Made by a program: the position numbers and the translations under genes. From Methanohalophilus euhalobius (lineage in GTDB: Archaea > Halobacteriota > Methanosarcinia > Methanosarcinales > Methanosarcinaceae), in NCBI RefSeq assembly GCF_900215215.1, contig NZ_OBDR01000005.1:1-64000 (forward strand): DNA of 64,000 nucleotides. The letters are read 5' to 3'. The notes beneath the pieces were generated by a model. That model saw only the letters and a list, made by a program, of their open reading frames with translations, was not told where the DNA came from and made no database searches. Shown here piece by piece: positions 54,438 to 54,966 of the stretch; the stretch's first letter is position 1, and every line of letters starts with the position of its first letter.

Positions 54438-54874
54438 TCATGAACGTCGGGAGTGCAGAGGGTCGTGGAAACCCATGACTTTAGTCGTGGGAGGAAACGT
54501 ACCCTCGCCGCCCTTTTCACCTCTTATACTTTTTATTGTTTTTAAATATGAAATGAAATAAATACTATCAGCCCCTATATTATGTTGAGGAACAAACTGT
54601 CCTGATACCCCTTGTGGGAAAGGCACAATCCGACAGGAAGTAAACGGTTGAAGTTCAGGGTAACAGTTTGAACACATTGCTCTTTCGGGCAAGGTGGTTG
54701 GTAACAACCCCGTGGAAACGACATTTGAAGCGTCTCGATTGAGTAGGCTGCCACTTTCGTAAGAAAGTCTAACCCGTTGTCCGGGCAGTGTCAACCAGTC
54801 ATATGCGAAATGAATGTTACTTGTTAACATGATGATTTACCTGCAAGCCCTCTACTTTAGTCGTGGGTAGTTGA
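54438..54874 (+). mobile_element. Scars of IS200/IS605-family (IS1341-type) elements
   Basis: Two copies of ACTTTAGTCGTGGG lie in the same orientation (54478-54491 and 54854-54867). The first completes a hairpin CCCATGAC-TTTA-GTCGTGGG (54472-54491) followed by AGGAAACG; the second continues TAGTTGAC. Both resemble right ends of IS605-type elements with omega-RNA 3' hairpins. No tnpA or tnpB is present; one short frame before the second end (GNNPVETTFEASRLSRLPLS) may be a TnpB C-terminus, which is weak evidence. A minus-strand open frame across it looks antisense. Confidence 0.55.
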
Positions 54875-54903
54875 CAAATAATACTAGCCCTATATATTGA
54901 CCT

Positions 54904-54966
54904 GCGGCGATGATGAGAGTTACCCCCACTGAGCAAAGTATGAGGACAGAACTTAGCTGATGCCGC
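54904..54966 (+). ncRNA. Probable box C/D guide sRNA
   Basis: All four boxes are in order within 63 nt: C box ATGATGA (54910-54916), D' CTGA (54929-54932), C' ATGAGGA (54940-54946, one change), D CTGA (54957-54960). A terminal stem of GCGGC (54904-54908) with GCCGC (54962-54966), plus one G-U, closes it. The first guide is 12 nt, the usual spacing, the second 10 nt. Such RNAs direct 2'-O-methylation of rRNA or tRNA. I could not assign a target. An AT-rich element (AAATAATA, 54875-54882) could be its promoter. Confidence 0.6.

Follow-up and report, generated by a model that had tools for sequence, protein, structure and literature searches.

The sRNA gene and its surroundings

The window (the whole 64,000-nt stretch analysed here) opens contig C7 in the 1.94-Mb genome of Methanohalophilus euhalobius and includes tRNA-Pyl. 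It contains a box C/D sRNA gene flanked on one side by a divergent cofE-type gene and on the other by a convergent hsp20 gene, which is followed by an apgM-type gene; we take these three names from the translations. When 30 loci carrying the sRNA (our own included) were searched by tblastn, CofE was found at 30 (partial in L011 and L026), Hsp20 at 25 and ApgM at 19, several of these loci being too short to show all three together.

The gene is 63 nt long and reads GCGGC-G-ATGATGA-GAGTTACCCCCA-CTGA-GCAAAGT-ATGAGGA-CAGAACTTAG-CTGA-T-GCCGC, that is, stem, C box, guide 1, D′ box, spacer, C′ box, guide 2, D box and stem (Table 1). As in archaeal C/D sRNAs generally, the C (RUGAUGA) and D (CUGA) boxes are enclosed by a terminal stem, and internal D′ and C′ boxes are set apart by a short spacer (7 nt). 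A guide of about 10–12 nt matching rRNA or tRNA, the other feature of the class, is present as guide 1; for guide 2 there is no convincing match. The initial annotation had proposed a box C/D sRNA with four boxes and a closing stem in a gene-free region. Every element lies where it was placed, the identity and the boundaries of the unit are correct, the unit being kept as a whole across relatives, and both guide complements had been derived correctly.

Table 1. Coordinates of the predicted guide RNA gene, its parts and the TATA-like box (positions in the window)
Feature	Position	Strand	Basis or remark
Box C/D sRNA gene, predicted Gm guide for 23S 1909 (E. coli equivalent)	54904..54966	+	Anatomy, conservation, single copy
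Probable TATA box AAATAATA	54876..54883	+	28 nt before stem; putative function
Closing stem, 5′ arm GCGGC	54904..54908	+	Invariant in 29/29 alignment rows
C box ATGATGA	54910..54916	+	Sequence, family alignment
Guide 1 (D′ guide) GAGTTACCCCCA, 12 nt	54917..54928	+	54918-54927 complementary to GGGGGTAACT of own 23S
D′ box CTGA	54929..54932	+	Sequence, alignment
C′ box ATGAGGA	54940..54946	+	ATGANGA in 29/29 family rows
Guide 2 (D guide) CAGAACTTAG, 10 nt	54947..54956	+	Variable among relatives, no target found
D box CTGA	54957..54960	+	Sequence, family alignment
Closing stem, 3′ arm GCCGC	54962..54966	+	Sequence, family alignment

Such an arrangement is rare by chance. A descriptor asking for a C box, 9–14 nt, D′, 2–10 nt, C′, 8–14 nt, D and a closing stem with 4 or more pairs had a single match on the two strands of the 64-kb window and none in 300 windows of equal composition generated by a first-order Markov model. 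The single-strand folding score is mediocre (z = −1.86) and taken alone is weak evidence, as expected, because the closing stem is the only helix of the RNA. No open reading frame of at least 40 aa overlaps the gene on either strand, and a protein gene at this place was rejected for that reason.

At the gathering threshold, Rfam models found only a tRNA in the whole window and no family for the sRNA, whose best sub-threshold matches are all C/D RNAs. The best library matches, sR1 (RF01152, 34.0 bits) and snoPyro_CD (RF00095, 27.5 bits), have the same C/D architecture; we rejected membership in either, since the guides differ and both scores fall below the gathering score of 45. The eukaryotic SNORD36 and SNORD100 share the C/D architecture in weak matches far below cut-off, but their guides are different and their models longer.

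The sequence ATAAATAA starts 29–31 bases before the stem in 22 of 29 loci and so in most relatives, a position that fits a probable TATA box. According to the excerpt of PMC7994747, a TATA-like motif precedes only about 20% of the archaeal C/D sRNA genes studied; the present guide family, which has such a box, would belong to that minority. Directly upstream of the box in M. euhalobius is an insert of about 434 bp (54442-54875) holding no plausible protein gene. The other Methanohalophilus genomes have the site uninterrupted (CTCAT, then AAATAATA) and lack the insert; there is no target duplication. In M. euhalobius the insert runs up to the TATA-like box (54870-54883), the first two bases of which are altered, the relatives having ATAAATAA where ACAAATAA stands here. 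Everything upstream of the box is mobile-element sequence, and the divergent cofE gene has been displaced by the insert, an arrangement that amounts to a natural promoter swap. The left 45 bp or so of the insert resembles the left end of an IS200/IS605-type element elsewhere in the genome (G000:C17:206214, locus L226), whose two proteins we take, from their translations, to be TnpA and TnpB. A HEARO match in the insert is weak (22 bits against a cut-off of 83; minus strand, 54743-54875). The insert is probably a non-autonomous IS605-type remnant and perhaps includes an omega-RNA-like part.

Conservation and spread of the guide family

A blastn search with 91 bases (E < 1e-6) found the sRNA in 34 of 37 genomes of its own family, f1, and in none of 23 genomes of the neighbouring families f2–f5, where the best E was 0.0104. 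A covariance model recovered two of the three genomes missed by blastn (G016 and G029), the third (G021) being 83% complete. The family alignment A1 comprises 29 of the 30 loci, L013 having been omitted as a near-duplicate of L012. It shows little or no variation in the stem and in the C, C′ and D boxes; the initial annotation had listed a lack of box conservation among the findings that would count against its call, and the stem and boxes are indeed kept in all 29 aligned sequences.

Trained only on f1 sequences and run with strict filters at E 0.01 or better, the covariance model R1 matched 200 of the phylum's 392 genomes, with few exceptions at a single place per genome, and one place only in our genome, where the gene is single copy. 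We examined 40 of the approximately 139 matched genomes outside f1 (200 minus 61 of f1), chosen for family spread. All 40 carry GTTACCCCC at a constant distance from D′, a conservation that is partly built in since the guide is included in the model. The D′-like box that follows GTTACC and four bases is CTGA in 23 of them, CCGA in 13, CTTA in three and CTCA in one.

An exact pattern, in which conservation of the guide is wholly built in, occurred in at least 118 stretches of named genomes. Among the matches listed there are 80 loci, mostly from Methanomicrobiales and Halobacteria, but also from Methanohalophilus, Methanolobus, Methanocaldococcus and Methanothermococcus. A script check found a D box and closing stem in 71 of these 80 listed loci; among the nine without them, L253, L257 and L284 are truncated by a locus end. 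One bacterial record among the matches listed, L269, has neither a D box nor a closing stem and appears to be a chance match. A contig of an Ignavibacteriae MAG (L303:3914-3936) carries a complete Methanoregula-like sRNA and is probably a misbinned archaeal contig.

The halobacterial homologues agree with the Methanohalophilus sRNA in guide 1 and in box order: the f1-only model reaches distant genomes of the phylum that share both, and named Halobacteria are among the pattern matches listed. Guide 2, the spacer lengths and the closing stem vary between lineages. The neighbouring families f2–f6, of the same order and class, present a gap, while more distant lineages carry the sRNA. A lax search of 24 f2–f6 genomes returned no homologue and nothing better than E 0.016, and GTTACC is absent near the eight best loci (L198-L205). 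Either loss or divergence beyond the reach of the model may explain this absence.

Guide 1 and its predicted target in helix 69 of 23S rRNA

The initial annotation had proposed searching both guide complements against the 16S, 23S and tRNAs of the organism. For guide 1 this led to a target: bases 1947-1956 of the organism's own 23S (GGGGGTAACT; contig C9, minus strand) are the exact complement of guide 1 minus its end bases, giving 10 uninterrupted Watson–Crick pairs in helix 69. Guide 2 yielded nothing comparable, the 44 tRNA genes included. The base opposite the fifth from D′ is the fourth G of five, base 1950 from the start of our 23S match. We take the U of the helix 69 loop UAACUAU to be E. 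coli 1915, which would place the predicted methylation site, six bases before it, at 1909.

This position is known from other archaea. According to the excerpt of PMC2584109, H. marismortui has Gm at 1950 (E. coli 1909) and pseudouridines at 1956 and 1958 (1915 and 1917), and the 1909-equivalent position contacts the P-site tRNA. In 2008 a C/D sRNA candidate for this base was predicted in H. volcanii; 25 archaeal genomes were reported to have homologues of it, and Pyrococcus sR41 was suggested as a further guide for the base (same excerpt). Helices 68, 69 and 71 are described as methylation hotspots in the excerpt of PMC4644070. The H. volcanii sRNA, predicted to guide Gm1934 (Gm1950 in H. marismortui, 1909 in E. 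coli), would have an identical target base to ours, a likeness drawn from its description in PMC2584109 as excerpted. The 1909-equivalent G faces the fifth base from D′ in our sRNA as well, and the most likely target of guide 1 is this G. Sequence comparison reliably marks the sRNA as a new Methanohalophilus member of the guide family predicted in 2008, an assignment of low surprise.

Complementarity by itself is not striking. With the 23S and 16S locus and its flanks as target text, runs of at least 10 were reached by 54 of 5000 12-mers from the window and by 30 of 2000 shuffled guides. The putative 23S assignment leans instead on three points: the pairing bases are the conserved ones, they keep a fixed distance from D′, and the site coincides with a mapped Gm. 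Within the family, the guide 1 columns that pair with 23S reach 97–100% conservation, with the exception of the second base from D′ (62%); most other Methanosarcinaceae have G there instead of C, which does not match the target. A spacing of exactly 4 nt separates GTTACC from a D′-like box in 68 of 69 aligned homologues (28 of 29 in A1, 40 of 40 in alignment A2). The target reads CGGGGGTAACTA without variation in every 23S found, in 16 genomes of f1 and 24 outside it. We sought covariation between guide and target in the homologue-bearing genomes and found none, because the target never varies.

A second site for guide 1, positions 140-151 of the 16S (TGGGGATAATTC), has to be weighed here. Guide 1 could act on it instead of or besides helix 69, with 10 Watson–Crick pairs and one G–U over 12 nt and one internal mismatch, and a 12-nt score that charges mismatches even ranks it above the 23S site (9.0 vs. 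7.0, a level reached by 15 of 150 random 12-mers). However, the mismatch adjoins the base to be methylated, the GTTACC of all 69 aligned homologues matches what the 23S requires and not the 16S, and the known Gm, in the excerpt of PMC2584109, lies at the 23S site. We consider action on the 16S very improbable. Slimmer still are the odds that the locus is a chance arrangement or a dead, unexpressed relic. The mobile-element remnant, which directly upstream has taken the place of the sequence preceding the TATA-like box, would suit a relic; nevertheless, AAATAATA is retained, neither the boxes nor the stem nor guide 1 is damaged, all of them are conserved between Methanohalophilus and Halobacteria, and the random windows held no match to the descriptor.

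Guide 2 and the proposed particle

For guide 2, no match above random was found in the organism's own 16S, 23S and 44 tRNA genes, its best score being equalled by 116 of 150 random 10-mers. It is therefore probably an orphan guide in this lineage. The family alignment has 24 different guide 2 sequences among 29 members, with columns 38–83% conserved. Six close Methanohalophilus genomes keep it nearly constant (CARAACWTAR), and in G002 and G005, which lie deeper within the genus, it is unrelated. Elsewhere the slot looks different: many Methanomicrobiales (L127-L135, L139-L142 and many of L243-L322) have a conserved GCAGGGG-like D guide with a short spacer, and five Methanococcales loci (L266, L267, L275, L307 and L310) have another, similar among themselves. 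When 10 rRNA loci were searched with short exact motifs for a target of the Methanomicrobiales D guide, no consistent site emerged.

A true double guide, in which guide 2 would act on a lineage-specific target (an mRNA, another RNA or an imperfect rRNA site), might be read from its normal length, its near-constancy among the six close genomes and the conserved Methanomicrobiales guide, which indicates that the slot can be under selection elsewhere. Set against this are the diversity of guide 2 across the family, the unrelated guide 2 of G002 and G005, and the lack of an above-random match in the organism's own 16S, 23S and tRNA genes. We regard a double guide as improbable in M. euhalobius.

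Our preferred interpretation, to which we give a probability of about 0.93, is an archaeal box C/D sRNA whose guide 1 directs methylation of the 1909-equivalent G, guide 2 most likely being without a substrate here. The gene would be transcribed and, following the pattern of the C/D class, L7Ae would bind the C/D kink-turn and the C′/D′ kink-loop, after which Nop5 and fibrillarin would assemble on the RNA. A fibrillarin gene is present in the genome (G000:C8:35632-36303, E 5.2e-84). Guide 1, through 54918-54927, would then pair with 5′-GGGGGUAACU-3′ in helix 69 of 23S rRNA, and fibrillarin would methylate the 2′-OH of the G that faces the fifth guide base, counted upstream from D′ (E. coli 1909, H. 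marismortui Gm1950). The C/D half, with its guide 2 most likely lacking a substrate in this lineage, would serve the assembly of the particle.

More speculatively, the sRNA may be half frozen across the euryarchaea (Methanococcales, Halobacteria, Methanomicrobiales and Methanosarcinaceae), with its other half a free slot, open to the loss, drift or new uptake of guides. The D slot would hold the GCAGGGG-like guide in Methanomicrobiales, another in Methanococcales and none in Methanosarcinaceae. The particle would be kept for one methyl group in helix 69 and act as a cradle for new guides, and guide 2 of Methanohalophilus would perhaps be a young guide with a non-ribosomal target. We hold this scenario to be doubtful.

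The assignment to guide 1 turns what was a motif guess into a testable proposal, one guide for one base of helix 69, and it fills an annotation gap, as no Rfam family reaches its cut-off at this gene. Archaeal C/D guides are described as fast-evolving in the excerpt of PMC7994747, and a guide kept this widely would therefore mark a methylation under strong selection.
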